Below are positions 7,097-57,715 of a DNA stretch of 64,000 nucleotides, piece by piece. The translations under genes were made by a program, and so were the position numbers. The DNA comes from Trifolium pratense (lineage: Eukaryota; Streptophyta; Magnoliopsida; Fabales; Fabaceae): positions 24,262,337-24,326,336 of the forward strand of contig NC_060064.1 of NCBI RefSeq assembly GCF_020283565.1, in the 5' to 3' direction. The notes below the pieces were generated by a model. It was not told where the DNA came from. It saw only the letters and a program-made list of their open reading frames with translations, and did no database searches. Every line of letters starts with the position of its first letter. Position 1 is the first letter of the stretch.

Positions 7097-7436
7097 GATA
7101 AGCTTGATATCATATCCAAGAAACTATTAAGTTTTGACGATCTCTTCAACTTTTCGGTGGTTTGCAAGGAATGGAGCGCAGTTCAAAAAATTTTGTTGGC
7201 GAAAATTCCTAGAATCACAATCATCGATGATTGTGCAAACTACTAGGTATGCAAAAAGGTTTTACTATTTATATAGCGTACCCAAAAAACGAGCTTACAG
7301 CTCTAAGATGAGTTATTTCTGGGGTTTATCTTATTGTGGTTCATCTAGTGGATATCTGATCATGACAGGTGCGAACAATACACCTTTCATGTTGTTGACA
7401 CCTTTCAAGAATAGATATCCACTAAATGAACCATAA
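7097..7436 (+). pseudogene. F-box/DUF295 pseudogene, sense arm (copy A)
   Basis: The first frame reads DKLDIISKKLLSFDDLFNFS then VVCKEWSAVQK and LLAKIPRITII before a TAG near 7,245. This is an F-box domain (LP/LL...DL...VCKxW), the adaptor motif that binds SKP1 in SCF ubiquitin ligases. After a frameshift, a second frame gives RYAKRFYYLYSVPKKRAYSS, MSYFWGLSYCGSSSGYLIM and MLLTPFKNR, typical of the start of the DUF295 beta-propeller region that follows the F-box in this plant family. The gene is cut at about 115 codons, whereas intact members have roughly 350-400, because the sequence then turns back on itself. Confidence 0.85.
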
Positions 7437-7624
7437 TAAGATAAACCCCAAAAATAACCCATCTTAGAGCTGTAACCTCATTTTTTTTAGTATACTATAA
7501 AAATAATAAAACCTTTTTGCATATGTAGTAGTTTGCACAATCATCGATGATTGTGATTTTAGGAATTTTCGCCAATAATTTTTTTGAGCGACCCTCCACT
7601 CCTTGCAAACCCCAAGAAGTGGAC
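7146..7624. repeat. F-box inverted repeat (copy A)
   Basis: Left arm 7,146-7,359 (from 'tcaacttttcggtggtttgc' to 'tagtggatatctg') pairs with right arm 7,413-7,624 ('agatatccactaaatgaacc' to 'gcaaaccccaagaagtggac'). Both arms hold F-box/DUF295 coding sequence in opposite orientation, separated by a loop of about 53 nt (7,360-7,412). Arms are similar but imperfect. A transcript through it would fold into a hairpin of about 210 bp. No promoter is evident. Confidence 0.88.
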
Positions 7625-7639
7625 AAATATATTCTAGAT

Positions 7640-8361
7640 AATAAGTTCATTATAAAGTAGTAGATGATATCTTAAAGAAATTTCTTCTTATATATATATA
7701 CAATCATATATAATTAGGCATAAGAGGTAAAAAATAAAATTACAACTAACCTCAAAGAAAGTGACTTTCATCCTTGCAAGTAGAATTACTAAGCTTTGAT
7801 GACTTGACGAGAATATTAAATAAAATTGCACATTATCATCCCAAGTGGTTCTGAAATCAACAAGAAACTGTTATAACAAAATATAAGACTATATTCTAAT
7901 ATGTGCAATTTAAGGTGCCTTGCTCAAAAGATTTATTTTGTAGATATCTTCATAGTGAGCATGAAATAACCACCAAAAAACATAAAATTTCAATAAATTC
8001 ATTTACATGATATTTGGTGTCATCATTAGCAAAAATTAGTCTCGTGAGCTTAGCTCATTTGGCAGGAACATTGTATTACAAAGATCGGGATTTGAACCCT
8101 GATCATCCCACTTATCCACTTTAAGGGTGGAATTTCTAGACACAAGATTACTTGACAAAAAAAATAATTAACAAAAATTAAGCCTAAAATAATTTCACAC
8201 TATAACACTTTAGTAAAACAATATACATTAGTGTTACTTCAAGAGATTTACAAAAATTATCAACAAAAATAAACGAGATTTACAAAAAAAATATATTTTA
8301 TGCTCAAATCTTGAGAATATATAATTTAAAGTTGCATATGATTCTCACATAAATTAATCAC

Positions 8362-8415
<54 letters not shown>

Positions 8416-9620
8416 ATTTTACAAAATAAATATTCAATCCCACAAATAAAAAAATTTATATTAAAATTAAAATCAAAGAAATATTCTTGGTTTGAATTTA
8501 TTTAAAATCAAATTTTCCTGGCATAAGTCAAATAAGTCAAATCGTAAATAAAATAAATTATCAAATCAATATATTATGGATCAAATCTTTAATGGTACAG
8601 GGAGATTGAGTATAAACGATGAAGGAATATGGACATATATATACATTGAACACAAAATTTTGAGAAGAAGATTTTTAAAATTATAAATTCTTCTCAAATA
8701 AATATAAAATATCTCTGTGTATTCAAAATTTTTAAAATATTCTCTACCAAGATAATGAAGACTGGATCGTATCGGTCGGTTCGATCTGTTGAATCGAGAA
8801 TCATACCTCAATCTGATCCAATACGAATAGGAAACCGTTGTGCCACATAACCAATATATGAAGTCAATTTGATGTTTTCATAGCAAGCAAGCATTGATCT
8901 AAGAAGAACAAGAAGAAAAAAGGAGTCATAAAATGAAATAATGAAAAAAAGAAAAGAAGAAGGTGCATACCAAAGGAGAGATGAGATGAGAGATTATAGT
9001 AGGTGACGGCTACATATTTGATTATAGATGAGAGATTAACTTTAGGTTTTCTGTTATATATATATAAGTGGGCACATATGTGGGCTTGGGCCAAAAATTT
9101 AATCATCCCACACAAAACAAGAAATTTTTCTCCTCCCGCCCCATATATTTCTTTTACACCCCTAAATTTCCAATTTTTCTTTAAACTTATTTCGAAAATG
9201 TTTTCTGCTCGCTACATTTTGGAAAACGTTTTCCAAAATATCCCTTTATACACCAAAACACAAACAAGTAAAAAAAAAAACCCTCCTTTGTCAATTTTCC
9301 CACTCTGTTCTTTCTCCATGGTACCACTACACAAAAGTCGCCCTTCACCGGCAACATCGCAAAAATGCCGCACAACCCTCCCGAAACACCACGATTAACT
9401 CTCAAGTAATAACGTGGACTAGGACGTGGATAATGCGTGGATAACCTTACCCACAACATTATCTGGGTAGCGAATTACCAACGCAACAAAATGCCACAGA
9501 CCCGTTCCCTAGGTATGTCGTGGATAAATTTCATATATACTCAAGATAAAACTGTGGATAATGGCAAAAATGGCCGTGGGAGGGAGCATGAATTTTTATT
9601 AATAGATATTGTCATATAGT
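7640..9620. repeat. Conserved non-coding block next to the F-box repeat (copy A)
   Basis: AT-rich sequence without recognisable coding domains, kept in all units beside an F-box inverted repeat. It includes an (AT)n tract at 8,366-8,414, the SINE at 8,039, and a more complex part around 9,100-9,580 ('gtgggcttgggcc', 'ccatggtaccactacac', 'tctgggtagcgaatt'). Short frames there are not convincing proteins. It recurs inverted at about 43,390-45,000 and 53,280-55,330. Confidence 0.6.
8039..8171 (+). mobile_element. tRNA-derived SINE (copy A)
   Basis: Starts 'gtctcgtgagcttagctcat' with an RNA polymerase III A box (tagctcatttgg), and a B box (gatttgaaccc) about 50 nt later. It ends in 'ttgacaaaaaaaat'. 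Nine-base target duplications CAAAAATTA flank it (8,030-8,038 and 8,172-8,180). A related site lacking the SINE at about 51,457-51,475 has only one copy of the target. Confidence 0.9.
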
Positions 9621-12500: not shown

Positions 12501-12520
12501 GTGGAGATATGAGCTTATAT

Positions 12521-13226
12521 GGAGAACATTTTTCACTATATATAGATAGATGTAGTAATTGTAGGATTGCTACTTTGGATTTAATGATTCCAAAGTAGGT
12601 AAAGCTAGCGATAATAATCACCATTTGAAACAGGTGTGGTCTATGGAGGAAATTGAAGGTGAATACTGGCGCATAATAGAGCAACCGATTGATGAGGTCG
12701 AGGTATTATTCTTTTGAAATATTGTTGGTTTTCAATGTAACATGCATAATATATAATTTTTGTAGGTGTATTGTAGAGCTGACTAGCAAACTAGAGCCTT
12801 TAGAAATGGTTTTCCAAACACATCGTCCTTAACTAGAGAATTTTGTATGCCATGATTGGCTGGAATCTTATTCAAATAAGGACAAATTTGAATCACTCTT
12901 AGTTAAGGATGATGTCTTGTGAAAACCATTTCCTAGTCCAGTTTGTTACCAAGTAAGCTCCATAATACACCTACAAAAGTCATATATTGATACATAAATT
13001 GTTTTCTTAAGCATGTTATACATTGTAATCCAACAATGTTTTATTGAAATAATACCTCAACTTCATCAATCGGTTGCTCTATTATCCGCCAGTATTCACC
13101 TTCTATTTCCTCCACAGACAGCACCCGTTTCTCATGGTGATTATTATTACTACTTTTATCATCTTTGCAATCATTGAATCCAAATTAGCAATGCTACATA
13201 TACAACAGCTGTAGTGAAAAATGTTT
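12521..13226. repeat. JMJ demethylase fragment as inverted repeat (copy A)
   Basis: Left arm 12,521-about 12,838 ('ggagaacatttttcac' to 'catcgtccttaactagag') pairs with right arm about 12,895-13,226 ('ctcttagttaaggatgatg' to 'gtgaaaaatgttttt'), with a loop of about 55 nt. Both arms carry the same two exon pieces and the intron between them. The sense arm reads MEEIEGEYWRIIEQPIDEVE then donor 'gag|gtatta' at 12,702/12,703; its second exon 'gtgtattgtagagctgactag' is stopped. Confidence 0.88.
12905..13194 (-). pseudogene. JMJ14/18-like histone demethylase fragment (copy A)
   Basis: On the minus strand, 13,194-13,056 reads FGFNDCKDDKSS...KRVLSVEEIEGEYWRII and EQPIDEVE, ends at a donor (GAG|gtatta), and resumes at 12,970 after 'tgtag' with VYYGAYLVTN. 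This matches the segment between the JmjN and JmjC domains of plant JMJ14/JMJ18-type H3K4 demethylases, where EIEGEYWRIVE...DEVEVYYGADLE is characteristic. Phase-0 splicing joins VE to VYYG, so the intron was kept: capture was from genomic DNA. Catalytic JmjC residues are absent. It is the antisense arm of the inverted repeat and is better preserved than the sense arm. Confidence 0.85.
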
Positions 13227-13306: not shown

Positions 13307-15331
13307 TGTAATCCCCGACTTTTAGATTTATGTAGGATTTAGTTAATTTCTAGTTTTGTTCTATTAAGAATTAATTATTTTGTGTATTTGTGTTATTATT
13401 TAATTTTTTAGCATGTTAAATAATTAATTAACGGGAATTTAGAGTAGAAGGGACGAGATAGTGAAAATAAGTAATTAAGTTATAATTACAAGACTTTTAG
13501 GAAATTAACATAAGTGAAGAGAAAAATAGAAAAAATAAGAAATTTAGAAGAAATTAACATAAGATTATTTATATTTCATGGTTTTGGTTTATAGGTAAAA
13601 TAGCTAGTAAGTCTTTTCGTGTGTTTTCAGATTGGTGTAAGGATCCATTAAAATATATTATTAACATGTAATGGTCCCTATAAGAATTGTAAGGGTTGAG
13701 TACCACTTGTACTTCTTATAATTCAATTTATGCTTATAAAAAAAAATAAAAAAAAATAAAGAGTGGGGTGCGGAGTTTAATTAGCGCGTAAAGAGAGGGA
13801 TATGGGTTAGTAAAACGGTAGAGAAAGACGTTTTGGGTATATAAATCAGTTTCTAAATGTTTATGAGATTTTTCCTATGTTTAAATCGCCGAAATCATAT
13901 TTTTTGGGTGTTTTAATGGAGTTTCGTGTTACTGTTCATGTTGTTCTTCGTGTTTGCATCGGTGCAAACCATCCTTGCACCGGTTCATCTGGGTTTTGAG
14001 AGGTTTGCATCGGTGCAAGCCCTTCTTGTGTTGTTTGCATGGGTGCATCCCTGCTATGCATCGATTCTTGTTTGTTCTTGGGTTGTTCGTTTTTTCTTCT
14101 TGCATTGGTGCATCCCTGTTATGCACTAGATCAACCATTCCTAGGTAGTCTTGCATCAGTTCAAGGCTCCCTGAGCCGACTCAAACTTTTCCAGAGTTGC
14201 CTTTGCATCAGTGCAACCCAGTTTTGCACCGGTGCAACTTTGCCAGAAAATTATTTTCTCGAAGTTGTTTTGAAAATCGATAATTAAGCTTTTCTAGAGT
14301 TTTAAAGAAATTATGTTTTGTTACGGGGCTCTATTAATGCCTGTTTTTTTTTTAAAAAAAAATTAATAAAGTCGATTAATCCCTTTCTGTTACTAATTAA
14401 CATAAATTTTTAGCAAGTTCTAAAATGATCTTAAAATAAAACGTCCGTGTTGGGAACTGTTTGAATTTTAAGAAATAATTTATAAGTTATTAATTGACGA
14501 GGTTTAAGCCGTTGAATATTAAGAATTAATTTATAAGTAAGCTGTTGCTATTTATGTTGTCATAAGCTGTTGTTTATAAGCCGTTGATCATTGATTTAGT
14601 TCTTTTAATTAGTTGATTTTATTAGTTGTTTAAATTGATGTTGTTGAAGAGTGTTTTCTGGAAAATAATTTTGACCTCCGCCCTTGGTACCACGTGCATC
14701 TAGAGAGTGTGTTGCATTGCATCACATTATGTTTGTAATTATTGAATTTAATTAATTTTTATGCTTGAGTTGTTTTTATTTTCAATAATTCTATCTTGAG
14801 TTACTACATGATGTGAGTTTAATTATGTCGTTATGTTTTATCCTTCAAAGAAGATAATGTGTTTTTTACTATTTCTTGGATTACTTTAAATTCAGTAATC
14901 TTTTGTGACCGTGTTACTCACCTCTTGTTGTTTCCCTTTCTAGCTTGGCCCTACGATGTACAATCGTATATTTTTAGGTAGATGATCATCCTTAGTCGCT
15001 GAGTCTGGAGATGGCATTAGGAGGCTGTCAAAATTTATCGCTTTCTGTTATGTGGAGTCTATGCTAGGATATTTTTTGGGGAAACTATATTTTAATTCAG
15101 TTGTTCAATTTCATTAAGGATTTCTGGATCGTGTTATTCTTTTTTTCGAGACACCGTGATCTAAACTTGGAGATTAGTTATTTGGTTTATTTTAAGTTCC
15201 GCCGCATAAATTTTGTTTGGTTGAGTATGTGTGACACCTTTTTTAAATAAATGAAGTTATTTTGATAATTAAAATCAGTGGGGTTTTTTTTTTAGATAAA
15301 TTAAAATCAGTGGGGTTTAGAGGGTGTTACA
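13307..15331. mobile_element. Solo LTR, gypsy-like (copy A)
   Basis: Begins TGTAATCCCCGAC and ends GAGGGTGTTACA, the TG...CA pattern with short inverted termini common in Ty3/gypsy LTRs. It is 2,025 bp long. Flanks are GATGC on the left and TATGT on the right (TATGC in copies B and C), consistent with a decayed 5-bp duplication. No internal retroelement genes lie on either side, hence a solo LTR. The interior (13,953-14,241) holds an array of TTGCATCGGTGCAA-type palindromes. The same LTR sits at 23,654-30,829 and 39,799-41,823. Confidence 0.8.
13953..14241. repeat. Cluster of TTGCAYCGGTGCAA-like palindromes (copy A)
   Basis: About nine degenerate copies of TTGCA(T/C)CGGTGCAA occur within 290 bp of the LTR ('tttgcatcggtgcaaacc', 'ccttgcaccggttc', 'tttgcaccggtgcaac'). 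Each is close to self-complementary. Overlapping open frames on both strands here are by-products of the repeat. Confidence 0.75.
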
Positions 15332-15852: not shown

Positions 15853-16491
15853 AAGGTTTTAAATTGCGGATGCGATAACGGTTGCAGTTGTTGCGAATGC
15901 GATCATTGTGGTTGCTACAACGCGCAATGCGACTGTTGCGGCGTAAAATCATTTTGAAATTTCACAAGCTATATAAAATGAAACTACTATGTAACTTCAC
16001 TATTTATCCGCCGTTGCATAATCTTAGTTTATTCCATAACCACTGATTTGAATCTTCTTAAAACACACTGTTGAGAGATTGTTAAAAATAAGATTTTCCA
16101 TTACATTTGACATAAATTAGAATTTGAAGTGATGGGCAATGAAAGAATATCCATTTTATGACAAATACGGTCCGATGGTTGTTCTTCACTAACCACAAGG
16201 ATATAGGCACTCTATATTTCATCTTTGCTGTCATTGCTGTAGTGATGGTCACATGCTTATCAGTATTGATTCGTATGGAATTAGCATGATCCGGCGATCA
16301 AATTCTTGGTTCATAAATTTTATTTTTTAGTGAGAAAATTTGAACTAACATCGCGGAAAACGGCTGATGCAGTTACGATATGCCCGTACACCTAAATTAA
16401 GATCACACCGTAATTGCGGGGCGATGCTATTGCGGAGGTTCCCGCATCAGCAATACTGCTGCCGCAATGCGGACCGCAATTTAAAACCGTG
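15853..16491. mobile_element. CAAGG-type MITE with cox1 insert (copy B)
   Basis: Left end CAAGGTTTTAAATTGCGG and right end 'ccgcaatttaaaaccgtg' are inverted termini. The interior is rich in 'gcggttgcg' stretches. Compared with the 48,172 relative (reverse complement), it holds an extra segment of about 180 bp at 16,130-16,309, between 'atttgaag' and 'ttcataaat', which is mitochondrial cox1. Flanking octamers do not match. Confidence 0.85.
16158..16310 (+). pseudogene. cox1: Mitochondrial cox1 5' fragment (copy B)
   Basis: Same captured cox1 start as copy A ([20 protein letters not shown]...), but with substitutions such as [11 protein letters not shown] and an in-frame TGA after MELA ('gcatgatcc'). 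It therefore cannot encode even the fragment. It sits inside the CAAGG-type MITE. Confidence 0.92.
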
Positions 16492-16701
16492 ACAGGATCC
16501 GTCATGCCACAATGGGATCAGCAAAAATAATAATTTTTCAACTTAACTGAATTCATCGTGCCATGATGGGCTTCCATGATGCCATAATGAAGACTTGATT
16601 AGAGCGTGTTTTTCACAATAAATAGAGGTCCGGGTCTCAAGGATTTGACACACCGGAATTGAGAGAAGCAAAAGTGGCTAGGAATACTATGTTTTATTAT
16701 A

Positions 16702-16995: not shown

Positions 16996-17183
16996 TATAT
17001 TTTTGACTGGATGAATGAATTGTTATGTATGCACGCTGCAAAAATACTGTTATACTATTAAAGATGGACAAATTTTTTTGTCAAACTAAGTCTTATAAAA
17101 ATGGATAATTTTTATGTCAAACCAAGTGTTATAAAAATGGATGGAGGGAGTATACGTAAGTAGAAATCACCTAACATTTCCGT

Positions 17184-17487: not shown

Positions 17488-18018
17488 TAGGGATAAGCTT
17501 GATATCATATCCAAGAAACTATTAAGTTTTGATGATCTCTTCAACTTTTCGGTGGTTTGCAAGGAATGGAGCGCATTTCAAAAAAATTTATTGGAGAAAA
17601 TTCCTAGAATCACAATCATCGATGTTTATGCAAACTACTAGGTATGCAGAAATGTTTTACTATTTATATAACATATCCAAAAAATGAGCTTACAGCTCTA
17701 AGATGAGTTATTTTTGGGGTTTATCTTATTGTGGTTCATCTAGTGGATATCTGATCATGATCAGTGCGAACAATACACCTTTCATATTGTTGACACCTTT
17801 CAAGAATAGATATCCACTAAATGAACAACAATAAGATAAACCCAAAAATAACTCATCTTAGAGCTGTAAGCTCGTTTTTTTGGGTATGTTATAAAAATAA
17901 TAAAACCTTTTTGCATATGTAGTAGTTTGCACAATCATCGATGATTGTGATTTTAGGAATTTTCGCCAATAATTTTTTTGAACGACCCTCCACTCCTTGC
18001 AAACCCCAAGAAGTGGAC
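17488..18018. repeat. F-box/DUF295 pseudogene inverted repeat (copy B)
   Basis: The sense part (DKLDIISKKLLSFDDLFNFS, VVCKEWSAFQK) begins at about 17,488. The arms pair 17,541-17,753 with 17,808-18,018 around a loop of about 54 nt. The second DUF295 frame is more damaged than in copy A. Same organisation as 7,146-7,624. Confidence 0.85.
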
Positions 18019-18439
18019 AAATATATTCTAGATAATAAGTTCATTATAAAGTAGTAGATAATATCTTAAAGAAATTTCTTCTTATATATACACAATCATA
18101 TATAATTAGTCATAAGAGGTAAAAAAAAAAAAATTACAACTAACCTCAGAAAAAGTGACTTTCATCTTTGCAAGTAGAGTTACTAAGCTTTGATGACTTG
18201 ACGAAAATATTGCAAAAAATTGAACATTATCATCCCAAGTGGTTCTGAAATCAACAAGAAACTGTTATAACAAAATATAAGACTCTATTCTAATATGTGC
18301 AATTTAAAGTGCCTTAAGAAATGCTCAAAAGATTTATTTTGTAGATATCTTCCAAGTGAGCATGAAATAACCACCAAACAACATAAAATTTCAATAAATT
18401 CATTTACATAATATTTGGTGTCATCGTTAGCAAAAATTA

Positions 18440-18572
18440 GTCTCGTGAGCTTAGCTCAATTGGCAGGAACATTGTATTACAAGGATCGGGATTTGAACCC
18501 TGATCATCCCACTTATCCACTTTAAGGGTGGAATTTCTAGCCACAAGATTACTTGACAAAAAAAATAATTAA
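18440..18572 (+). mobile_element. tRNA-derived SINE (copy B)
   Basis: Copy of the SINE at 8,039, with A box 'tagctcaattgg', B box 'gatttgaaccc', and CAAAAATTA duplications at 18,431-18,439 and 18,573-18,581. Confidence 0.9.
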
Positions 18573-18599
18573 CAAAAATTAAGTCTAAAATAATTTCAC

Positions 18600-22832: not shown

Positions 22833-23558
22833 GGAGAACATTTTTCACTATATATAGATGTAGTAATTGTAGGATTGCTACTTTGGATTTAATGATTCCA
22901 AAGTTGGTAAAGCTAGCGATAATAATCACCATTTCAAACAGGTGTCGTCTATGGAGGAAATTGAAGGTGAATACTGGCGCATAATAGAGCAACCGACCGA
23001 TGAGGTCGAGGTATTATTCTTTTGAAATATTGTTGGTTTTCAATGTAACATGCATAAGAAAACAGTTTATGCATCAATATATAATTTTTGTAGGTGTATT
23101 GTAGAGCTGAGTCAGCTGACTAGCAAACTAGAGACCTTAGAAGTGGTTTTCCAAACACATCGTCCTTAACTAGAGAATTTTGTATGCCATGATTGGCTGG
23201 AATCTTATTCAAATATGGACAAATTTGAATCACTCTTAGTTAAGGATGATGTCTTGTGAAAACCATTTCCTAGTCCTGTTTGTTTCCAAGTAAGCTCCAT
23301 AATACACCTACAAGTCATATATTGATACATAAATTGTTTTCTTAAGCATGTTATACATTGTAATCCAACAATGTTTTAATGGAATAATACCTCGACTTCA
23401 TCACTCGGTTGCTCTATTATCCGCCAGTATTCACCTTCTATTTCCTCCACAGACAGCACCCGTTTCTCATGGTGATTATTATTACTACCTTTATCATCTT
23501 TGCAATCATTGAATCCAAATTAGCAATGCTACATATACAACAGTTGTAGTGAAAAATA
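22833..23558. repeat. JMJ demethylase fragment as inverted repeat (copy B)
   Basis: Same arrangement as 12,521-13,226: a sense arm with MEEIEGEYWRIIEQPTDEVE, and a minus-strand arm whose first exon piece spans 23,391-23,519 with the donor at 23,390 (VEEIEGEYWRII...SDEVE). The second-exon piece (VYYG-like) is just beyond 'tgtag' near 23,310. Confidence 0.85.
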
Positions 23559-27581: not shown

Positions 27582-27589
27582 GTATATAC

Positions 27590-34955: not shown

Positions 34956-35127
34956 ATTCAATCCCACAAATAAAAAATTTATATTAAAATTAAAATCAAA
35001 GAAATATTATTGGTTTGAATTTATTTAAAATCAAATTTTTCTGGTATAAGTCAAATAAGTCAAATCGTAAATAAAATAAGTTATCAAATCAATATATTAT
35101 GGAATAAAATCAGATCTTTAATGGTAC

Positions 35128-35187
<60 letters not shown>

Positions 35188-37455: not shown

Positions 37456-37499
37456 TATAATGATTTTTATCAACCAATCAAAATACTCTCTTCGATATT

Positions 37500-38970: not shown

Positions 38971-39700
38971 GGAGAACATTTTTCACTATATATAGATGTA
39001 GTAATTGTAGGATTGCTACTTTGGATTTAATGATTCCAAAGTTGGTAAAGCTAGCGATAATAATCACCATTTCAAACAGGTGTCGTCTATGGAGGAAATT
39101 GAAGGTGAATACTGGCGCATAATAGAGCAACCGATTGATGAGGTCAAGGTATTATTCTTTTGAAATATTGTTGGTTTTCAATGTAACATGCATAAGAAAA
39201 CAGTTTATGCATCAATATATAATTTTTGTAGGTGTATTGTAGAGCTGAGTCAGCTGACTAGCAAACTAGAGACCTTAGAAGTGGTTTTCCAAACACATCG
39301 TCCTTAACTAGAGAATTTTGTATGGCATGATTGGCTAGAATCTTATTCAAATAAGGACAAATTTGAATCACTCTTAGTTAAGAATGATGTCTTGTGAATA
39401 CCATTTCCTAGTCCTGTTTGTTTCCATGTAAGCTCCATAATACACCTACAAAAGTCATATATTGATACATAAATTGTTTTCTTAAGCATGTTATACATTG
39501 TAATCCAACAATGTTTTAATGAAATAATACCTCAACTTCATCAATCGGTTGCTCTATTATTTGCCAGTATTCACCTTCTATTTCCTCCACAGACAGCACC
39601 CGTTTCTCATGGTGATTATTATTACTACTTTTATCATCTTTGCAATCATTGAATCCAAATTAGCAATGCTACATATACAACAGTTGTAGTGAAAAATGTT
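38971..39700. repeat. JMJ demethylase fragment as inverted repeat (copy C)
   Basis: Sense arm (MEEIEGEYWRIIEQPIDEVK; the final codon is AAG, not GAG) and minus-strand arm with exon piece 39,531-39,659 (donor at 39,530), where the former CGG codon is changed ('tttgccagtattcacc' on +). Same loop sequence 'ttgtatggcatgattggct'. Structure as in 12,521-13,226. Confidence 0.85.
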
Positions 39701-42304: not shown

Positions 42305-42670
42305 CACTAATGCAGAAAGGAGATACAACTACTGGCCAAACAGACTTTCCACTACTGGCCGTGGCCAGTAGTAAACGCGGTCGACGTTGTAAGTCCACAC
42401 TTTCCACGTCGGGTCTTTTTATACCCGTCGTGGTATCCTAATTTCTTCTGTAATTATTATTTCAAATTATGGGGATTCCACGTCGGTTTTTACAAATACC
42501 CGTAGTGGTATGTATGAGATTCCACTACGGGTATTTACACATATCCGTAGTGGTATGTATGGTTTCTAGTTTTTTTTTTTTTTTTAAGAATTGGGGATTC
42601 CACTACGAGTATTTACAAATACCCGTAGTGGTATGTATGAGATTCCACTACGGGTATTTACCAGATGAAA
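42305..42670. mobile_element. CACTA terminus with hairpin subterminal repeats
   Basis: Begins CACTAATGCAGAAAGGAG. Inside are four copies of a near-palindrome CCACTACGGGTATTT-AC-AAATACCCGTAGTGG (42,478-42,508; 42,522-42,553; 42,600-42,631; half at 42,645), as in CACTA subterminal regions. The other terminus is not in the window; the sequence changes to the F-box-associated block at about 42,690. Confidence 0.7.
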
Positions 42671-42711
42671 ACTATAAAAAAAATTATGAAAATCGGATTA
42701 TTTTTCGGTTT

Positions 42712-43305
42712 GGCAGGTTGGACAACTTTTTTCTTTTTAGACAAAAGATCAAAAACAAGCTCCACTTTAAGATAATAAAGAAGTCAATTTGATGTTTTCG
42801 TAGCAAACAAGCATGGATCTAAGAAAAACAAGAAGAAAATTGGGAGACATAAAATGAAATAATGAAAAAAAGAAAAAGAGTAATATTATTCTTTTTCTAT
42901 GCAAAACAAAGGAGAGAGATGAGAGATTATAGAAAATGGTGGCTACCTATTTGATTATAGAAGAGAGATTAACTTTTAGGTTTTCTGCTATATAAATATA
43001 TATAAGTGGGCACATATGTGGGCTTGGGCCAGAATCCCACACAAAAAAAAGAGATTTTCCTTGTCCCTCCTGGATATTTCTTTTACACCCCCCAAAATTC
43101 CTATTTTGTCTTTAAACACATCTCGAAAAAAGTTTTCCAAAAATATCCCTTTATACACAAAATCACAAACAAGCAAGCAACAAACCCACATTTTTGTCAA
43201 ATTTTCCCACTCAATTCTTTCTCCATGGTATCAGTGCACAATCGTCGTCCTTCCTCCGCAACATCACACAACCTTCATGAAATATCACAGTCCTCCATTC
43301 ATTTG

Positions 43306-43362
<57 letters not shown>

Positions 43363-44030
43363 ATGCGCATGAAGGTGACAATGTGGTGGATATAGAGTGA
43401 GAGAGAGAGAGAGAACAAATGAATGGAAGACTGGGGTGTTTCATAAGGGTTGTGCGATGTCGCGGAGGACGGACGACGATTGTGCAGTGCTACTATGGAG
43501 AAAGAATTGAGTGGGAAAATTTACCAAAAAATGGGTCTGTTTCTTGCTTGTTTTTTGTTTTTGTGTATAAAGCGATATTTTTGGAAAACATTTTTCGGAA
43601 TGTGTTTAAAGACAAAATAGAAATTTTAGGGGGTGTAAAAGAAATATCCGGGGGGGGAGGGGACAAGGAAAATTTCTTTTTTTTTTGTGGGATTCTGGCC
43701 CAAGCCCACATATGTGCCCACTTATATATATTTATACAGCAAAAAACCTAAAAGTTAATTTCTCATCTATAATCAGATAGGTAGCCGTCACTCTCTATAA
43801 TCTCTCATCTCTCTCCTTTGTTATGCATCGTCCTTCTTCTTTTTCTTTTTTTCATTATTTGATTTTAAGTCTCCCCATTTTCTTCATAGATCCATGCTTG
43901 CTTGCTATTAAAACATCAAATTAACTTTTTTATTATCTGAATGTGGAGCTTGTTTTTGATCTTTTGTCTAAAAAGAAAAATGTTGTCCAACATTCCAAAT
44001 CGAAAAATAATCTGATTTTCACAAATTTTT
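42712..44030. repeat. Head-to-head palindrome of the conserved block
   Basis: The left arm (42,712-43,358) is the forward block ('gacaaaagatcaaaaacaag', 'gtgggcttgggcc', 'ctttctccatggtatcag'). The right arm (about 43,397-44,030) is its inverse ('gaaagaattgagtggg', 'ggcccaagcccac', 'cttgtttttgatcttttgtc'). The left arm ends in (CT)n at 43,311-43,358 and the right begins with (GA)n, separated by about 38 nt. The many overlapping frames in both arms are not convincing genes. Confidence 0.88.
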
Positions 44031-45800
44031 CTAGTTTTAATCTGGTTTTTCGGTTCATATATAGGTTTTCATCTGGTTTTTCTGTGTCTATTGGACCAGA
44101 TTGAAGTATGATTCTCGATTCAAATTCTCGATTCAACAGATCGAATTGGCTGGTCCGATCCAGTCCTCATTACCTTGGTCGGGACCATTTTAGATTTTTT
44201 GAACACCTAGAGATCTTTTTATATTAATTTATTTGTTTATTTGAGAATAATTTATAATTTTAAAAATCATCTTCTCAAAATTTTGTGTTCAATATATTTG
44301 TCCATATTCCTTATTGTTTATATACCTCGATCTTCTTATTTATTGATTTGATATTTTATTTTCAAATAAAATATGATTTGAATTATACCGAGAAAATTTT
44401 ATTTTAAATAAATTCAAACCAAGAATATTTCTTTGATTTGAATTCTAATATAAAATTTTTGATTTTTGGGATTGAACATTTATTTTGTAAAATCTTATAT
44501 ATTTGGTGATTAATTTATGTGAGGCTATATACAACGTTAAATCTTATATTCTCAAGATTTGAGCATAAAATATTATTTTTTTAAAATCTCTTGAGGTAAC
44601 ACTAATGTGAATTATTGTTAATTACGACACCAAAAATGAATTTATAAAAAATTATGTTGTTTGGTGGTTATTTCATGCTCACTAGGAAGATATCTACAAA
44701 ATAAATCTTTTGAGCATTTCTTAATGCAATTTAAATTGCAAATATTATTAATAGAATCTTATATTTTGTTATAACAGTTTGTTGTTGATTTCAGAACCAT
44801 TTGGGAAGATAATGTGTAAGTTTATGTGATATTCTCATCAAGTCATCAAAGCTTAATAACTCTTATTTACAAGGATGAAACTCACTTTCTCCGAGGTTAG
44901 TTATAATTTTATTATTTCCTGAAGATATCATCTACTACTTGAAAATGAACTTATTATTAGAATATATTTATAAATTTATAATTTTTTAAATATTTTATAG
45001 ATTTCTCGTAAATATACTACATTAAAAAAATAAAATATGTTGGGAGTATTTCAAAACGAATTAATTTTAGAGTATTGTGAATGGTTATGCAATAATTCTT
45101 AATTTTTATTTTTACAGTATCACCTATTATAGGTATAATTATGCAAATTTATTTTGTTTGGTAAAATAATAAAAAATATTCTAATTATATTTAATATTAT
45201 ATTAATAATAGTCATACCTTATCAGTATACTATTGTTAATATAATTTGTTGTTAATTGTTCAATGTATTTGTGTTTTGATAATTATGTCAAATATGCATG
45301 GTTCGAGTACTCTATCGATTAGAATATTTTGGTGACATAATATTTTTTAAGTACATTGTTATATTTCTTATTTATTATAATTGAGACCTTGTATTTGAGA
45401 TTGCAATAAATTAGAAAACTTTTTTTTTAAGAAATGTAATATTTTATCTCTATTTTATGCAATATCATAATTTATTTAAATTCTAAAGGTATACAATTCC
45501 TTAATCCATTTATTTTTGTTTATAATGGATACGACCTCTACTATACTACGCAAACCTGTCACTACTAGACTTAATTAACATTTTTTTGAGGTATAGGCCT
45601 AATTAACATAGTGGCCAATTCCTTAGTTCATTTGTTAATGTAGATATATATGTTATATAATTTGGATATATGATTGATAAAATCCCCACAAAAATCAATA
45701 CAGTTCACATTTTACAATGATTAATTTTGATATGGACAATCTAACATTGAAAATCCCTTAACATTCCAATTGTAGAAGAGAAAAAAATGAAACAAGTCAT
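44031..45800. repeat. Inverted conserved block, then AT-rich spacer
   Basis: 44,031-44,960 is an inverted, diverged relative of 7,640-8,860, without the SINE. 45,000-45,800 is AT-rich and gene-free. Confidence 0.55.
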
Positions 45801-45806
45801 GGATGT

Positions 45807-46704
45807 AGTCCATTTCCTTGGGATATATTTGATTTCGTATCCAATAAACTACTAAATTTTGACGATCTTTTTAAATTTTTGACAATTAGTACGGAGTAGT
45901 GGGCATACATAAAATTTATTAGAAACTACTCCTAGAATATCAATCACCATTGATTGCACAGACTACTAAATATGCAAAAAGATTTTATTCTTTTTATAAC
46001 ATACTTGAAAAATGAGCTTATAGCTCTAAAATTAGTTATTTTTATGGCTTATCCTATTATGGTTTGTCTAGTAGATATTTGATCATAATATGTGTCAACA
46101 TTACACATCAGCTAATTGATCCAATTAAAAGAAAATAGAAGATCATTTATACCTTAGTAGTTGGAAAGGATCAACTTATTTTGCATGTCTTGTCTAATTC
46201 GTTTTTGCCAAAGTCTCTGATGAATTTGTAGTAGTGCCTTCATGCAAACGTTTCAAACTTTTCAAACGTTCGCATGAAGGCACTATGACAAATTCATTAG
46301 AGCCTTTGGCAAAAACGAGTAAGACACGACAAGCAAAATAAGTCAAATCATTTTCAACTACTGAGGTATCAATGGTCTTCTGTTTTCTTTTAAATGGATT
46401 CATTAGTCGAAGTGTTTTGTTGGTACCTGCCATGATCAAATATCCAGTAGACGGACCATAATAAGATAACCCCTAAAATAAGCTCATTTTTCGGGTATGC
46501 TATAAAAAGAGTAAAATCTTTTTGTATATGTAGTAGTCTGTACAATTAATAGTGATTGGGATTCTAGGAATATTCTCTAATATATTTTCTGAATGCATTC
46601 CACTTCGTGCAAACTGCTGAAAAATTAAAGAGATTGTCAAAACTTAGTAGTTTCTTGGATGTGAAACCAAGCATATCCGACCAGGGAAAAGGACTAATGC
46701 ATGA
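45807..46704. repeat. Near loop-less F-box/DUF295 inverted repeat
   Basis: Left arm 45,807-46,256 and right arm 46,262-46,704 meet at 'cgtttcaaacttttcaaacg' with almost no loop. The minus-strand reading of the right arm has an F-box (KKLLSFDNLFNFSAVCTKWN), then DUF295 pieces: IFDHGRYQ-type, MAGTNKTLRLMNPFKRKQ, YFACRVLLVFAKGSNEFVIV and PSCERLKSL, several stops apart. Arms are about 440 bp, similar but not identical. The foldback point is deeper in the gene than in copies A-C. Confidence 0.88.
46194..46439 (-). pseudogene. DUF295 fragment in the 46-kb inverted repeat
   Basis: An 81-codon minus-strand frame: MAGTNKTLRLMNPFKRKQKT, LTYFACRVLLVFAKGSNEFV, then SCERLKSLKRL before it reads across the fold point into the opposite arm. 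It matches the blade following the F-box in plant DUF295/KIB-type F-box proteins (GxxNPFxRxK, LAFAKGSxEFV). Not a functional gene. Confidence 0.75.
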
Positions 46705-46859
46705 CTTCTTTCATATTTTTCTCTGCTACAATGGAATCAAGCATATCCAGGTGATTTCCAATGTTAGATTATCCATATGAACTATATTGATTTGTGTCAA
46801 GTAAATTTTGATATTGCGTCAAAAAAGAGCCAAAATCAAATTTCCTATGTTTCAAGTAA

Positions 46860-47660: not shown

Positions 47661-48171
47661 AAAAAGTAAATTTTGATATGGACTAAACTAGAAAAGGTGT
47701 TATAAATTATTTGCCATTAAAAAAATAAACCGGAGCCAAAATTTTATTTAAGCGATTTTCTTTAGGTAATTCTCCCAGTATGAAATTCATTATATATATC
47801 TAGAATATTCATTATACATATCATGATAGCAATATACTTGAAGTTGAACATATCATGATAAAACGGTAATCTAAACAGTCATATTTTTGTTGTATTAATT
47901 CTATTTACTTCTAAATTTTGTTGCAGATAGTATTCAGTATTCACCAAAGCTTGCTTATATATCTATTCATAAAATGAAGTATAAGGAATTTTTTTCAAAT
48001 TATTATACATTGAATTTTCATGTTTTGATTGTGTTTCACCTAGTATATATCCATATTGACTAATGAAATAAAAGTTATTTATCAATATTTAATTCTATAT
48101 TGGATAATGATATTGCTATAGAATCTAATCTTTAATAAAATAACATCTGGTATAGGCTTTGTACTCATGAT

Positions 48172-48671
48172 CAAGGTTTTAAATTGCGGTCCGCATCCGC
48201 AATTGCGGCCGCAGTATTGCTGATGCGGTAGCCACCGCAACCGCATCGCACCGCAATTGCGGTGTGATCTTAATTCACGTGTACGGCCGCATCGTAACCG
48301 CATCACCACCGCATCGGAAGCCGCATAAGATGTTTTCGGCGATGTTCCTTCAAATTTTCTCACCAAAAAGTAAAATTTATGAACTTCAAATCCTAATTTG
48401 TGTCAAATTAATGAAAAATCTTACTTTTAACAATCTCTCAATCATGTATTTTAAATACATTCAAATTATTGTTTATAGAATAAACTAAGACTATGCAATG
48501 ATAGATAAATAGTGTAGTTACATAGTAGTTTGATTTTATATAGCTTGTGAAATTTCAAAATGATTTCACGCCGCAACAACCGCATTGCGCGTGCAGCAAC
48601 CGCAATGACCGCATTCGCAACAACTGCAACCGCAACCGCATCCGCGACCGCAACCGCAATTTAAAACCTTG
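48172..48671. mobile_element. CAAGG-type MITE, full-length with 8-bp duplication
   Basis: CAAGGTTTTAAATTGCGG and its inverse bound a 500-bp element. CTCATGAT flanks it on both sides (48,164-48,171 and 48,672-48,679), indicating a hAT-type insertion. The interior is rich in 'gcggttgcgg'. It lacks the cox1 segment, so it is the uninterrupted form of the element at 15,853 (opposite orientation). Confidence 0.93.
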
Positions 48672-49891: not shown

Positions 49892-50384
49892 GTGGTTATT
49901 ATAAGCTTAATGTTGATGCAGTAGGTCCGATTGAGGGAGGTAAGTAGGGTATTGGTGTTGTGGTGAGAGATGGTGTTGTGGTTGCCGCTAGTTGCTGGCA
50001 AATCCTTTCATTACCAGACTCAGAAGTAGCAGAAGCTTTAGCTAAGCGGAAGGGTTTGGAATTTGCAAAAGATTTGTGTTTTGCGAATCTTATAACGGAA
50101 TCAGATGCTTCAAATGTGGTTTTGGCGTTGAATAATCGTCGACAATCTTCCCACTATGTTGGTTCTATTATTGAAGATTGTATTAATTTTAATGTTTACT
50201 TTCATAGTTTAAACTTTGTTCATATTAGGCGTTAAGCTAACCAAGCTGCCCATTATTCAGCTAAATACGCTCTTTACAATTCATACTACATATGGAATGA
50301 AGAGACTCCGCCTTGTATTTCTGCGGTCTTGAGTTTTGATTTGTTGGCAGACTTTCATTAATGAAATTTTTTTAAACACCAAAA
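49892..50384 (+). mobile_element. 5'-truncated LINE with RNase H-like domain
   Basis: Sixteen-base duplications AAAAATACATCATCTA at 49,876-49,891 and 50,385-50,400 flank a 493-bp insert ending in an A-rich tail. The + frame reads GYYKLNVDAVGPIEGG, a TAG at 49,947, then GIGVVVRDGVVVAASCWQIL, AEALAKRKGLEFAKDLCFAN, ITESDASNVVLALN and NFVHIRR*ANQAAHYSAKYAL. This is the RNase H-like domain of a plant LINE with the DxxxxGxGVVxRD and ESDA motifs. Two stops interrupt it. Strong 5' truncation leaves only the 3' end. Confidence 0.9.
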
Positions 50385-53280: not shown

Positions 53281-54634
53281 TCAATTTCTTCATTGAATGC
53301 TCTATGAATTTGGAGAAGGGTTGAAGGTGACAATGTGGTGGGGAGGGAGACGGAGGGAAGGAGGGAGAGAGATAGAGATAGGGATAGAGACTGTGGTGTT
53401 TCAGGAGGGTTGTGTGATGTTGCGGAGGAAGAAGTGAGTGGGAAAATTTGACAAAAATGTGGGTTTGTTAATTGCTTGTTTGTGTTTTTGTGTATAAAGG
53501 GATATTTTTGGAAAACCTTTTCCGAAATGTGTTTAAAGACAAAATAGGAATTTTGGGGGGTGTAAAAGAAATATCCAGGGCGGACGAGGAAAATTTCTTT
53601 TTTTTGTGTGGGATTCTGGCCCAAGCCCACATATGTCGATATATTTATAGAACTGAAAACCTAAAAGTTAATCTCTCATCTAAAATCAAATAGGTAGCCG
53701 CCACCCTCTATAATCTCTCATCTCTCTCCTTTGTAATGCATCTTCCTTCTTCTTTTTCTTTTTTTCATTATTTCATTTTATATCTCCCCATTTTCTTCTT
53801 GTTCTTCTTAGATCCATGCTTGCTCGCCATGAAAACTTCATATCGGCGGCTTTATTAGCTTATAGTGGAGCTTGTTTTTGATCTTTTGTCTAAAAAAAAA
53901 ATGTTGACCAATCTTTCAAACCGAAAAAAACATTCAATTTTCACAATTTTTTCTAGTTTTCATCTGGTTTTCAGATTCATATATAGGTTATGTGCTCCAA
54001 CGGTTTTCTGTGTCTATTGGACCAGATTGAGGTATGATTCTCGATTCAACAGATCTAACCGACTGATCTGATCCGGTTTTCATTACCTTGGTTGAGACCA
54101 TTTTAGATTTTTTGAACACCTAGAGATCTTTTATATTAATTTATTTATTTATTTGAGAATAATTTATAGTTTTAAAAATTATCTTCTCAAAATTTTGTGT
54201 TGTTCAATGTATTTGTCCATATTCCTTATTCGTTTATATATCTCGATCTCCATATTTATGTAACATTAAAGATTTGATTTTATTCCATAATATATTGATT
54301 TGATATTTTATTTTCAAATAAAATATGATTTGACTTATATCGAGAAAATTTTATTTTAAATAAATTCAAACCAAGAATATTTCTTTGATTTTAATTTTAA
54401 TATCAAATTTTTGATTTGTGGGATTGAACATTTATTTTGTAAAATCTTATATATTAGGTGATTAATTTATCTGAGAATCATATACAACTTTAAATCATAT
54501 ATTCTCAAGATTTGAGCATAAATTATTGTTTTTTTGTAAATCTCTTGAAGTAACAGTAATGTGAAGTGTTGTTTTACTATAGTGTAGTGTGACATTATTT
54601 TAGGCTTCATTTTTATTAATTTTTATTTTCAAGT

Positions 54635-54945
54635 ATTCTAGTGGTTAGAAATTCCACCATTAGGCTATGTTTGGATTGATGGAATGAGATGGGATGGAAT
54701 GGAAAGGGATTTCATCTCATAGCACCACTTATCTTCAATTTTGTTCTATCCTTTTTGAAATATACAATGGAATGTAAGATTTATTTCATCGCGCTCCATT
54801 CCACTCCACTCTACTTCACTTCATTCCATTAATCCAAACAGAATCTTAAGGTGAATAAGTGAGATGATCAGAGTTCGAACCCCAACCCACTACATATATA
54901 ATGCAATGTCCCTGTCAAATGAGCTATGCTCATGGGACTAATTTT
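54635..54945 (-). mobile_element. SINE, antisense, split by a Tourist-like MITE
   Basis: The inverse of the 8,039 SINE: 'gtggttagaaattccacc' ... 'gttcgaaccccaac' (B box inverse) ... 'tgagctatgctcatggga' (A-box end). It occupies the same site as in copies A-C and is interrupted at 54,663-54,845. Confidence 0.82.
54663..54845. mobile_element. Tourist-like (PIF/Harbinger) MITE
   Basis: Ends 'ggctatgtttggatt' and inverse of 'gattctgtttggatt', with TTA on both sides (54,660-54,662 and 54,846-54,848). The interior is 'ggaatgagatgggatgg'-rich. It is nested inside the SINE. Confidence 0.8.
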
Positions 54946-55339
54946 TGTTAATTATGACACCAAATATTATGTAAATGAATTTATATTTATGTTGTTTGGT
55001 GGTTATTTCATGCTCACTAGTAAGATATTGCCAAAACAAATATTTTGAGCATTTCTTTAGGCAATTTAAATTGAACATATTAAATTAGAGTCTTATATTT
55101 TATATTTTGATATAACAGTTCATGTTTGATTTATGAACCACTTGGAATGACAACATGTAAGCTTATATGATATTCTCGTCAAGTCATCAAAGCTTTGTAA
55201 CTCTACTTACAAGGATGAAAGTTATTCTCCCTGAGGTTAGTTGTAATTTTATTATTTTCTACCTTTTATGACTAATTATATGATTGCATCTAATGAGAAA
55301 TTTATTTATAATATTGTCTACTACTGTTTTGAAAATATA

Positions 55340-56280
55340 AAATGTACAATTATATATATAAAATGAAATTATTCTTTAGAATATATATTTAAATTTATAA
55401 CTCTTTAAATATTTTATATATAGATTTATCTCGTTAATGTACTCGATTAAGAAAAATAAAATATGTTAAGAGTATTTCATATCAAATTAATTTGAGAGTT
55501 CTATTATGGATGATTATGCAATCATTCTTAATTTGTGTTATCATAATCTCACTTATCGTGGATACAATTACGTAAAATTTGTTTAGTAAAATAATAAAAT
55601 TTATTTTAATCATATTTAATATTATATTGTTCAATGTACTTTTGATTTAATAAAAATATGGTTCGAGTAGTATCTGTAATAGAATTTTCTGGTGACATGA
55701 TATTTATAAAGTACATTGTTATATTTCTTATTTATTAATACTGAGATCTTTTGTTTGAGATTATAAGAAACTTTTTTTAAGGCATAAACTATTTCTATTT
55801 ATAAAGTTCCTCTATTTTATGCAATATATTAATTTATAGAAATTCTTGTTTAAAATGAATTGAAATTTTAGTAAAAAAAAATGAATTGAAATTCTTCTTG
55901 TACTACGTAAGTGATAAACATACCCTATCGATGTGACATTATTTAACATGATCATTGTGTGGTATATAATGTAGTTGAATATTTGTTTAAATACTATTAA
56001 AATTCTTGCATTGATATTCAATTATCTTTAACTTCGTGCAAACTTGACTAAAACAGTACTTAAATGACTCAATTTGACTCAAAACTACTTATAAAATGAC
56101 TTTAAAAACATCATATGACCGAGTGTCATCAATTAGTATATTATATATGTTATTTATGCTGATATTATATAGCTTGTAAACCTTTATTTTGATATACTAC
56201 TGACAATATAATTCAATAAATAAGAAAAAATGTTTGGGTCCAACATGTCGTAGAAAGGGTCTTAAATAGAAAAGGTTTTA
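55340..56280. other. AT-rich spacer, no gene
   Basis: Collinear in places with 44,960-45,540 ('tatgttgggagtatttca' relatives). No coding domain recognised. Confidence 0.5.
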
Positions 56281-56389
56281 ATCTTGGTTATAAAAATAGG
56301 TTATATTTTGTGTTTTCTATCGCTAATGTAGTTTTGCAATCAGAAATTCCTCGAACAATTAAGGTTCCTAAACTCACCAAATTTTCTAG

Positions 56390-57715
56390 TGAGGTTGTCA
56401 AATTTATTTTGCTTGTCGTGTATTACTCACTTTTGCCAAAGACTCTGATTAATTTTTCATAATGGCTTCGTACAAACGTTTTCTCAATTTGTATTTTTAC
56501 CGGTCCTTATATTCTAGTTGCGAAACTTATTCTAAATGAGCATATCCATGAAAGGTTGTGGACTTTGTTGTATTTAACTATACTATTTATGTTCTCGCCA
56601 ACAAGACTAAAATAAGGGTACTTAACTTGAACTCTACAAGTTTTGAAATTTCTAAAACTGAAGAATAATCTCAGTGTAATTTATTGGTCATATAATTTAC
56701 TTAGGTTCGATGGAGAGCTTATCTAATAGTTCACTTTGTATCGAATAAACTATTGGATTGTCTACAGGATAGATTGAGAAACAATGACTTATCCCATGTT
56801 AGAAACTTTGGCTGGCCTGGCATTATTTCATTCGTCTTACAAATACTAAGCGTTAGAGAAAGTTATCTAAAGTATAAAAGTTATCTCAAGTAATATAATA
56901 CGCACATGTAGGCTGCTTTCACACTTGAGATAACTTTCGCTAGCGCATAGCATTTGTAAGGCGAATAAAATAATGTGAGGTCACCCAAAGTTTCTAACTT
57001 TGAGATAAGTCATTGTTTCCCAATCAATCTTGTAGACATCCAATAGTTTTATTTGGTACAAAGTGAACCACTAGATACTCCCCATGGTTCCTAAGTAAAT
57101 TATATGACAAAGAAGTTACATTGAGATTATTCTTCGGTTTTAGAAATTTCAAACTTGCAATGTTATTGTTAAGTACCCCTATTTCAGCCATATTGATGAG
57201 AACATAAATAGTATTATTAAACACAACAAAGTCGATAACCTTCCACGGATATCTCCTTTTGGAATAAGTTTCACAACTTGAAATGATAGCGACGAATAAA
57301 CATACAAACTGAGGGAACGTTTGCATGAAGTCATTATAACAAATTCATTAGAGCCTTTGGCAAAAGAGAGTAAGACAAGACAAGCCAAATAAGACAAATC
57401 TTTTCCAACTAACAAGTTAATGATGTTTTCTTGTAACTAGATTCATTAGCTTAGATAAGTTTTTAACATCGGCCATGATCAAATATCCACTAGATGAGCA
57501 AGAATATATAATAAGCCACAAAAATAAATCATTTTAAATTTGTAAGCTCGTTTCAGATATGCTATAAAAAGAGTAAACTCTTTTCACAATAATTGTAGTC
57601 TATACAACCAATGATGATTGGGATTCTAGGAACTTTCTCCAATAAAATTTCTAAAAGTCTTCCACTCCGTGGAAGCCGCCAAAAATTTAAAGAGATGGTC
57701 AAAACATAATGGATA
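56390..57715. repeat. Longest F-box/DUF295 inverted repeat
   Basis: Left arm 56,390-about 56,880 and right arm about 56,925-57,400 are inverse copies ('ggattgtctacaggat' versus 'cttgtagacatccaat'; 'aaactttggctggcc' versus 'ggtcacccaaagttt'). The right side continues unpaired to 57,715 with the F-box-proximal part. The fold point at about 56,900 lies some 250 codons into the gene, the deepest of the five F-box inverted repeats. Confidence 0.87.
57024..57715 (-). pseudogene. F-box/DUF295 pseudogene, minus strand
   Basis: From 57,715 downward: an F-box remnant (FLAASTEWKTF-like), KVPRIPIIIGCIDYN, YLIMADVKNLSKLMNLV, DLSYLACLVLLSFAKGSNEF, VIMTSCKRS; then, in another frame, FVCLFVAIISSCETYSKRRY, PWKVIDFVVFNNTIYVLINM, AEIGVLNNNIASLKFLK and YLVVHFVPNKT. 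PWKxxDxVVFxxxIYVL and LVxHFxP are signature features of the DUF295 propeller. Several stops and frameshifts split it. It is the best-preserved DUF295 body in the window. Confidence 0.85.

Follow-up and report, generated by a model that had tools for sequence, protein, structure and literature searches.

The 64-kb window analysed here, meaning the whole stretch of clover DNA under study, holds five F-box/DUF295 (KIB1-type) pseudogenes, each followed by its own inverse and folded back at one of three points of the gene. This raises the question of whether such an arrangement arose once and was then remodelled and multiplied, or arose several times, and whether the hairpins could act on relatives of the gene from which they derive. 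No earlier account of F-box/DUF295 palindromes was found among the titles and abstract openings that targeted searches of an open-access library listed.

Five palindromes of one type of gene

All five inverted repeats proposed by the sequence-only reading are present (palindromes A to E, Table 1). Compared with its own complement by BLAST, the repeat is 83.6% identical in A, 84.0% in B, and 84.4% in C, where arms of ~239 bp surround an apex of 13, 9, and 9 nt, respectively. In D the identity is 77-81%, varying with the alignment, and the arms extend ~95-115 bp past the part matched by the reference protein P0001. In E, arms of ~490 bp with an identity of 80% enclose an apex of 35 nt. The outer ends of the second arms vary from locus to locus. 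A chance origin is excluded by the BLAST E-values of the inverted repeats (<=5e-141) together with the RNA fold z-scores, for which shuffle controls cover B (z = -29.7, 0 of 100 shuffles equally stable) and E (z = -32.2, 0 of 20 shuffles). Of the arm lengths first reported, that of ~490 bp for E held, whereas the 440 bp given for the copy at 46 kb (D) had to be replaced by ~530 bp, and those of A-C by the value above. Likewise, the span first assigned to E (56,390-57,715) does contain a palindrome, but its final portion is the one-sided 5' end that lies outside it.

Fold points were placed on P0001, the record of a 396-aa Trifolium pratense F-box/DUF295 protein with a whole DUF295 domain, whereas the palindrome arms correspond to parts of such a relative. 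As had been noticed from the sequence, the fold lies progressively deeper in the gene from A-C (codon ~146) to D (~197) and E (~320). The left arm of A is 67-70% identical to P0001 residues 39-156, and a 279-aa read-through of E matches the 396-aa protein with 48% identity (5.3e-57). This read-through reaches PF03478 exactly at the Pfam cut-off (27.4 bits, 3e-6), and weak matches to the same family, below the cut-off, occur in two of the eight pieces (0.022 and 0.027). There is no Pfam F-box match in the pieces or in the E read-through; A-D align with the N-terminal part of P0001, whose own F-box scores fall below the cut-offs. Stops or frame changes break the frame in every one of the five copies, which are therefore pseudogenes, and the last ~76 residues of P0001 are matched in none of them. 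Clover protein relatives on record are open over up to 396 aa.

Table 1. Palindromes and associated segments in the 64-kb window
Feature	Position	Strand or orientation	Remarks
Palindrome A	7146..7623	left arm sense +, right arm sense -	F-box/DUF295 pseudogene; fold codon ~146
Palindrome B	17541..18017		fold codon ~146; tandem copy of A
Palindrome C	33703..34179		fold codon ~146; tandem copy of B, 98.8% over 1.6 kb
Palindrome D	45716..46792		arms ~530 bp; fold codon ~197, apex 2 nt
Palindrome E	56404..57392		DUF295 part only; both arms = codons ~171-320
E pseudogene 5' (F-box) end, unpaired	57393..57753	-	stops at abutting repeat starting ~57757
Common flanking block, A	7656-8862		sequence match among all five loci
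Common flanking block, B	18050-19817		sequence match among all five loci
Common flanking block, C	34212-36209		two pieces: 34212-35153, 35175-36209
Common flanking block, D	43450-44969	opposite to A-C	
Common flanking block, E	53424-55325	opposite to A-C	
Tail segment on other side, A	5803-5986		matched to D only
Tail segment on other side, B	15866-16492		
Tail segment on other side, C	31875-32527		
Tail segment on other side, D	48171-48671		
Tail segment on other side, E	63091-63359		
JmjC (JMJ14-like) gene fragment palindrome	12525..13225		second palindrome family; with inferred intron
JmjC (JMJ14-like) fragment palindrome, further copies	22840-23557; 38975-39700		
Third palindrome	42660..44046		D flanking block self-folded; fold at (CT)25 microsatellite, 43309-43359

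Multiplication of the locus

Palindromes A-E have collinear matching flanks on both sides, which indicates that the locus was multiplied by segmental duplication. A 10-16 kb segment occurs in three tandem copies, each with the same hairpin (A, B, and C); D and E, whose flanks match and keep their order, are older copies of this locus. The five hairpins first described therefore stand as five repeats, but not as five separate histories, of which there are at most three. The idea of a duplicating family gains support from the tandem segment copies and the collinear flanks. The block adjoining the palindrome is 88% identical between B and D over 285 bp, with the arms lower, at 71-76%, which may mean that block and palindrome differ in their history.

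History of the arms

Arms as divergent as unrelated gene copies, which had been raised beforehand as the sign of chance insertion, are not seen: the two arms differ by 13-21% within loci A-D, against 22-30% between locus groups. The arms of A-C are nearer to one another than to D or E, and the split between A-C and D/E has a bootstrap of 100. Site patterns of A-C against D favor grouping by locus by 18 to 3 (A), 16 to 2 (B), and 17 to 2 (C), the third pattern being 0 throughout. The AU test, run on an alignment of nine rows and 261 columns that comprises all arms except the left arm of E, rejects three of the five trees compared, namely those in which arms of the same side group together (p 0.0003-0.0006). 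Among the rejected histories is that of one hairpin whose arms evolved independently and which was merely shortened from the apex (AU p 0.0003); this leaves one or more resets of the arms, or more than one origin of the arrangement. Only the first of the two options initially offered, pure apex-shortening, is thereby lost, and a repeated origin, or else an arm reset, remains. In the best tree the D arms group together (bootstrap 91). A tree in which they are split, with D_R joining E_R and D_L outside, is not rejected (AU p 0.16), so that one palindrome may be common to D and E. The overlap of the D and E arms, 77 columns, is too short for ordering (2 sites within locus, 1 orthologous, 1 crossed).

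The arms of A-C agree in a side-specific manner at 18 sites, versus a single site with both arms changed together, which makes the palindrome older than the A-C copies. After the A/C split, 22 changes are one-sided and 1 is two-sided; with no visible arm resetting in this period, a reset would be a rare event. Arm divergence since the split resembles that of the flanks.

In a test without positive control, the codon positions do not differ significantly in their divergence between loci. At codon positions 1/2/3 this divergence amounts to 0.23/0.21/0.27 for A_L-D_R (p 0.64) and 0.26/0.24/0.27 for D_R-E_R (p 0.82), and the comparison of A with D and E gives a non-significant third-position trend. 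Since codon positions diverge alike, the ancestor locus was probably non-coding before its multiplication; that is, the ancestral F-box gene was probably already dead.

Proposed origin and remodelling of the palindromes

The explanation that is tentatively preferred, at slightly less than an even chance, is a tail-to-tail inverted duplication that was reset and shortened at least once, through template switching or arm conversion, and then spread by segmental duplication. An F-box/DUF295 gene would have undergone the tail-to-tail inverted duplication, and been killed, before the locus was multiplied. A duplication of the locus, for which the collinear flanks speak, would then have given rise to the A-C and D/E types. 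In the A-C ancestor, the arms would have been re-equalised and the apex shifted towards the outside; template switching from one arm of the quasi-palindrome to the other is the likeliest mechanism and would at the same time account for the very short apex (2-35 nt across loci). A, B, and C then arose by tandem segmental duplication, as is directly visible in the window, and their arms have since drifted largely independently, as the observed changes show. Template switching is described as creating or re-perfecting stems (PMC8794818) and as homogenising arms (PMC8604942). Points against the preferred explanation are that symmetric loss at the apex is not an obvious product of ordinary deletion, that the second arms end differently from locus to locus, and that a reset would be rare.

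A serious competitor, if a less probable one, is that the gene was duplicated first and the A-C and D/E genes then snapped back independently, two or three times, at different codons, by fold-back or template-switch inverted duplication. This would fit the arms coalescing within A-C, and within D too according to the best tree, the three fold points with a short apex at each, and a similarity of the B-D block that exceeds that of the arms; moreover, a JmjC fragment and the D block are also palindromic in the same 64 kb, a region seemingly prone to such events. However, it demands two or three hits on the same gene at corresponding positions, the codon-position signal expected from live genes is absent (again, in a test without positive control), and the split-D tree lets D and E share one palindrome. 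An unlikely third possibility is a self-renewing gene palindrome, in which, after each round of drift, arm-to-arm fold-back or template switching overwrites one arm and shifts the apex, so that a single dead gene would go on yielding near-perfect hairpins with new fold points (codons ~320, ~197, ~146).

Folding and small-RNA potential

The hairpins could also be working silencing loci, transcribed and cut by Dicer-like enzymes to silence F-box/DUF295 relatives in trans as proto-MIRNA or hairpin-siRNA genes, although this is improbable. Each arm type is predicted to fold into one long stem (MFE of -278 for B, -535 for D, and -510 kcal/mol for E, with z about -30 for B and E), both arms match a protein-coding gene as in a proto-MIRNA, and clover relatives with open frames are on record. 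In a pairing simulation that was read six ways and began with the A/C ancestor, reconstructed by outgroup majority with ties resolved by the other arm, pairing came out slightly above the level expected after random substitutions, with a marginal fraction of equally good outcomes of 0.02-0.06 for C and 0.06-0.16 for A; preservation of pairing is at best weak. A first version, in which the 27 A/C substitutions were placed randomly on C (0 of 300 equally stable), was discarded for testing selection, since C has itself drifted from the ancestor and the changes from C to A are neutral on average.

Against a silencing role stand the nearly exclusively one-sided changes after the A/C split and the flank-like divergence of the arms. 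Arm mismatch is 14-20%, and exact duplex runs of >=21 bp are limited to one each in A, B, and C and none in D and E. No Rfam family reaches its gathering score in the window. Small-RNA loci could at most draw on the hairpins as raw material. In other comparisons, strand-specific wobble counts (+/-) of 9/12 in A, 7/9 in B, 7/9 in C, 32/26 in D, and 24/32 in E have no consistent bias, and a methylation-type CpG signature is not seen, the observed/expected ratios of A, C, D, and E (0.53-0.76) being no outlier next to the five flanks (0.26-0.81) and the window (0.70).

The mobile hairpin family first envisaged, a foldback or MITE-like element inserted five times, would explain five similar hairpins within 50 kb, but is very improbable: instead of fixed terminal inverted repeat ends and unrelated flanks, the palindromes end at differing gene positions and have homologous flanks on both sides, which point to segmental duplication. 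Long-read libraries are known to yield artefactual palindromes, but a sequencing or assembly artefact from fold-back chimeric reads is hardly credible here, given arms that differ by 13-21% in A-D and the same 18 side-specific differences recurring in A and C.

Relation to known systems

New plant miRNAs are known to arise from inverted gene duplications, and Allen et al. in 2004 reportedly traced the birth of young plant MIRNA genes to inverted duplication of coding genes. To our knowledge, early pre-functional miRNA stages have seldom been observed as a series. The usual MIRNA foldbacks are shorter than the arms of 240-530 bp found here. Rice Lgc1 is an active tail-to-tail inverted repeat of glutelin genes with closely matching arms; the clover palindromes have the same tail-to-tail arrangement and a possible hairpin RNA, but their arms are pseudogenes mismatched by 14-20%.

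According to PMC1790633, 16 Arabidopsis MIRNA loci show evidence of having originated in inverted duplications of coding sequences; the paper also names F-box genes among the targets of several young miRNAs of this plant, a precedent for a silencing role. As in those young genes, both clover arms are homologous lengthwise to a protein-coding gene; unlike them, they are hundreds of base pairs long and known here from their DNA sequence. The small-RNA precursors of the Arabidopsis S-locus, which have proto-miRNA features (PMC13128112), are likewise inverted repeats with a predicted hairpin, at a stage before true miRNA genes, but they are transcribed and act on SCR, whereas the clover palindromes are known here from their sequence. 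Template-switch stems, in which one event copies a reverse complement beside its source or re-pairs a drifted stem, offer another parallel, although those treated in PMC8794818 are stems of RNA genes and the clover arms are gene-derived and much longer.

At one locus, the window thus shows three fold points of a single gene, together with a partial order of events from palindrome to triplication to drift, and with two other palindromes adjoining. Such a series lets one ask whether hairpins are born once and then decay, or are renewed by arm-to-arm copying. A self-renewing palindrome, if true, would time and again supply fresh precursors of small RNAs directed at its own F-box family; if the hairpins yield no small RNAs, they would be ordinary debris of a fast-turnover gene family.

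Other palindromes in the window

The JmjC piece, which gave no match in a Pfam six-frame search, was recognised through comparison with solved structures. The third palindrome, formed by the D flanking block, has a longest exact run of 51 and seven exact runs of >=21, the largest number of such runs among the nine palindromes measured.

Inverted F-box/DUF295 pseudogenes

All five inverted repeats of F-box/DUF295 pseudogenes claimed by the sequence-only reading are recovered by self-alignment (palindromes A-E; see table), with spacers of 2-35 nt between the arms at the fold point. When folded as RNA, palindrome B reaches a z of -29.7, with none of 100 shuffles as stable, and palindrome E a z of -32.2, with none of 20, so that folding of both far exceeds chance. 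Shuffle controls cover these two; D exceeded the length for shuffles, and A and C were folded without them. A census of the whole window additionally returned the JmjC and block palindromes, together with several others that are smaller or weaker.

Palindromes of the window
Feature	Position	Properties
Palindrome A	7146-7623	self-alignment
Palindrome B	17541-18017	self-alignment
Palindrome C	33703-34179	self-alignment
Palindrome D	45716-46792	self-alignment
Palindrome E	56404-57392	self-alignment
JmjC (JMJ14-like) gene-fragment palindrome	12525-13225, 22840-23557, 38975-39700	one per tandem segment; arms 72-77% identical
Block palindrome	42660-44046	83-88% identity; fold at (CT)25 microsatellite; 51-bp exact duplex run

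The KIB1-4/DUF295 domain gives weak Pfam scores in two of eight short frame pieces, and the read-through of E, the copy at 57 kb, meets the Pfam cut-off for this domain. The read-through matches five proteins, four of them named as legume (two from Trifolium pratense, one each from T. repens and Gastrolobium bilobum), the top match being the 396-aa protein P0001 (E = 5.3e-57). By these matches, the window probably comes from a clover-like legume. Mapped back, P0001 places the left arm of A at residues 39-156, the final ~10 lying past the fold, and its right arm at 73-146; the arms of D at 48-196 and 52-203, the last few past the fold; and E at 64-320 on its right side and 171-319 in its left arm. 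The fold points fall at codon ~146 in A-C, ~197 in D, and ~320 in E, and in this mapping the last ~76 residues of P0001 find no match in any of the five copies, all of which carry stops or frame changes. At 7364-7415, the left reading of A stays in frame past the fold (..LLTPFKNR vs LMNPFTRK in P0001) and overlaps the other arm, which could be the mark of a short inverted match used in folding back.

Copying of the loci

Palindromes A, B, and C sit within long direct repeats. Identity between B and C is 98.8% across 1.6 kb and 95-98% across further kilobases, and A shares 88-96% identity with each of them; D and E are oriented the other way round. On one side of the palindrome, D and E have a block in common with A-C (73-88%), and on the other side a tail segment (73-89%, that of A matched to D only), in the same block-palindrome-tail order. 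Because block and tail are collinear across the loci, the unit of multiplication looks like the neighbourhood rather than the hairpin. Of the proposed mobile or duplicating hairpin family, duplication is supported and mobility is not.

The second arm of B abuts the block (arm end 18017, block 18019), and those of A and C lie within 33 bp of its matched part, whereas D and E have an extra 0.7-1.1 kb in between. This stretch is partly common to D and E, at 69%, so it was probably lost from A-C. A 203-bp tandem duplication at 37058-37459 (98% identity) is seen duplicated only in segment C.

State of the ancestor and history of the arms

Live F-box genes are expected to leave an excess of third-position change. 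Codon positions, fixed via P0001, were compared over 705 columns in the arms of A, C, D, and E, with B excluded because it is nearly identical to C. Differences at positions 1/2/3 are 22/96, 20/96, and 26/95 between the left arm of A and the right arm of D, 35/136, 32/136, and 38/139 between the right arms of D and E, and 23/95, 24/95, and 33/97 between the left arm of A and the right arm of E. None of the 17 overlapping pairs shows uneven divergence below p 0.26. Such evenness speaks in favour of the ancestor having been a pseudogene before the locus multiplied, for which prior folding would be the simplest reason.

Across the four A and C arms, 181 of 224 columns are identical, 18 are side-specific, 22 are changed in one arm, one in both, and two otherwise. 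It follows that the palindrome predates the A-C copies; since that copying no overwriting of one arm by the other is visible. Compared with D, the sites grouping arms within a locus number 18 (A), 16 (B), and 17 (C), those grouping corresponding sides 3, 2, and 2, and the third pattern is absent. In AU tests, the arm trees grouping by side, three of the five, are rejected (p 0.0003-0.0006), while trees grouping the A-C arms are retained, with D arms closest to each other (p 0.86) or otherwise (p 0.16). The left arm of E has no overlap with the compared stretch and is absent from this test, and the 77 columns of D/E overlap hold no usable ordering signal (counts 2, 1, 1).

The JmjC palindrome is likewise a DNA-level inverted duplication predating the A-C copies, with 64 side-specific sites, 13 one-sided changes, no two-sided ones, and 4 others between the A and C segments. 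In both arms of the copy at 12525-13225, an exon reading ..EEIEGEYWRIIEQPIDEVEV precedes an apparent intron, beyond which lies the next exon. Joined across this putative intron, the left-arm piece matches the rice Os05g0196500 protein (4igo, 2.4e-10) and Arabidopsis JMJ14 (5ykn, 4.2e-10).

Origin of the fold points

Even codon divergence and the arm tree together suggest a single ancestral palindrome, followed by at least one event that re-matched the A-C arms and shifted their apex. Template switching between quasi-palindrome arms, able in principle to re-match arms (PMC8794818; PMC8604942), may have done both; palindrome instability is treated elsewhere (PMC7999016). An ancestral inverted duplication, its arms reset and shortened from the apex before segmental duplication, is tentatively the best explanation overall. 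Separate origins, with an independent fold-back event in each lineage, form the main rival and are considered somewhat improbable; the other palindromes of the window lend them some support. A result that fits less smoothly is that B and D are closer in the block beside the palindrome (88% over 285 bp) than in their arms (only 71-76%). This could mean faster evolution of the arms, or else different histories for block and palindrome, and because of this discrepancy the ancestral duplication is rated slightly lower and separate origins slightly higher.

The cluster is real, well observed, and unusual. Its components are already known, namely segmental duplication, F-box pseudogenes, and gene-derived inverted duplications: the latter are described for young MIRNA loci (PMC1790633), and F-box and DUF295 are among the domains over-represented in the genes from which plant pseudogenes derive (PMC7935947). 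Its interest lies in a fold point that moves as the arms are reset, a reading open to testing.

Pairing potential

Taken in 100-column bins, A and C diverge by 1-9 in their arms and by 0-7 in their flanks. With random substitution simulated from the reconstructed ancestor, the fraction of simulations that pair as well is 0.06-0.16 for A and 0.02-0.06 for C (three readings each); pairing is kept slightly better than random, too weakly for a claim of selection. A, B, and C each contain one exact duplex run of 21 bp or more, D and E contain none, and the block palindrome contains seven. If any well-matched dsRNA is made in the window, the latter would be the better candidate, the best of the palindromes measured. 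One ORF tested within it has no Pfam match.

Neighbouring sequence

Repetitive ORFs with LHRCKP-like motifs occur once per tandem segment (13885-14287, 24262-24599, and 40303-40759), and the one searched has no Pfam match. The same holds for an 82-aa piece at 27441-27689 (+), where a LONELY GUY-like reading frame presumably begins. Adjoining the E pseudogene, short repeats run from 57757 on, starting CTTCCTCCGTCC..TTATAAG, with relatives to the left of A-C at 6526-6603, 17059-17142, and 33106-33177; we take them to resemble a MITE end. RVT_3 (RNase H-like) and DUF4283 pieces at 808-1458, 3081-3491, 49948-50235, and 2051-2632 probably derive from retroelements.
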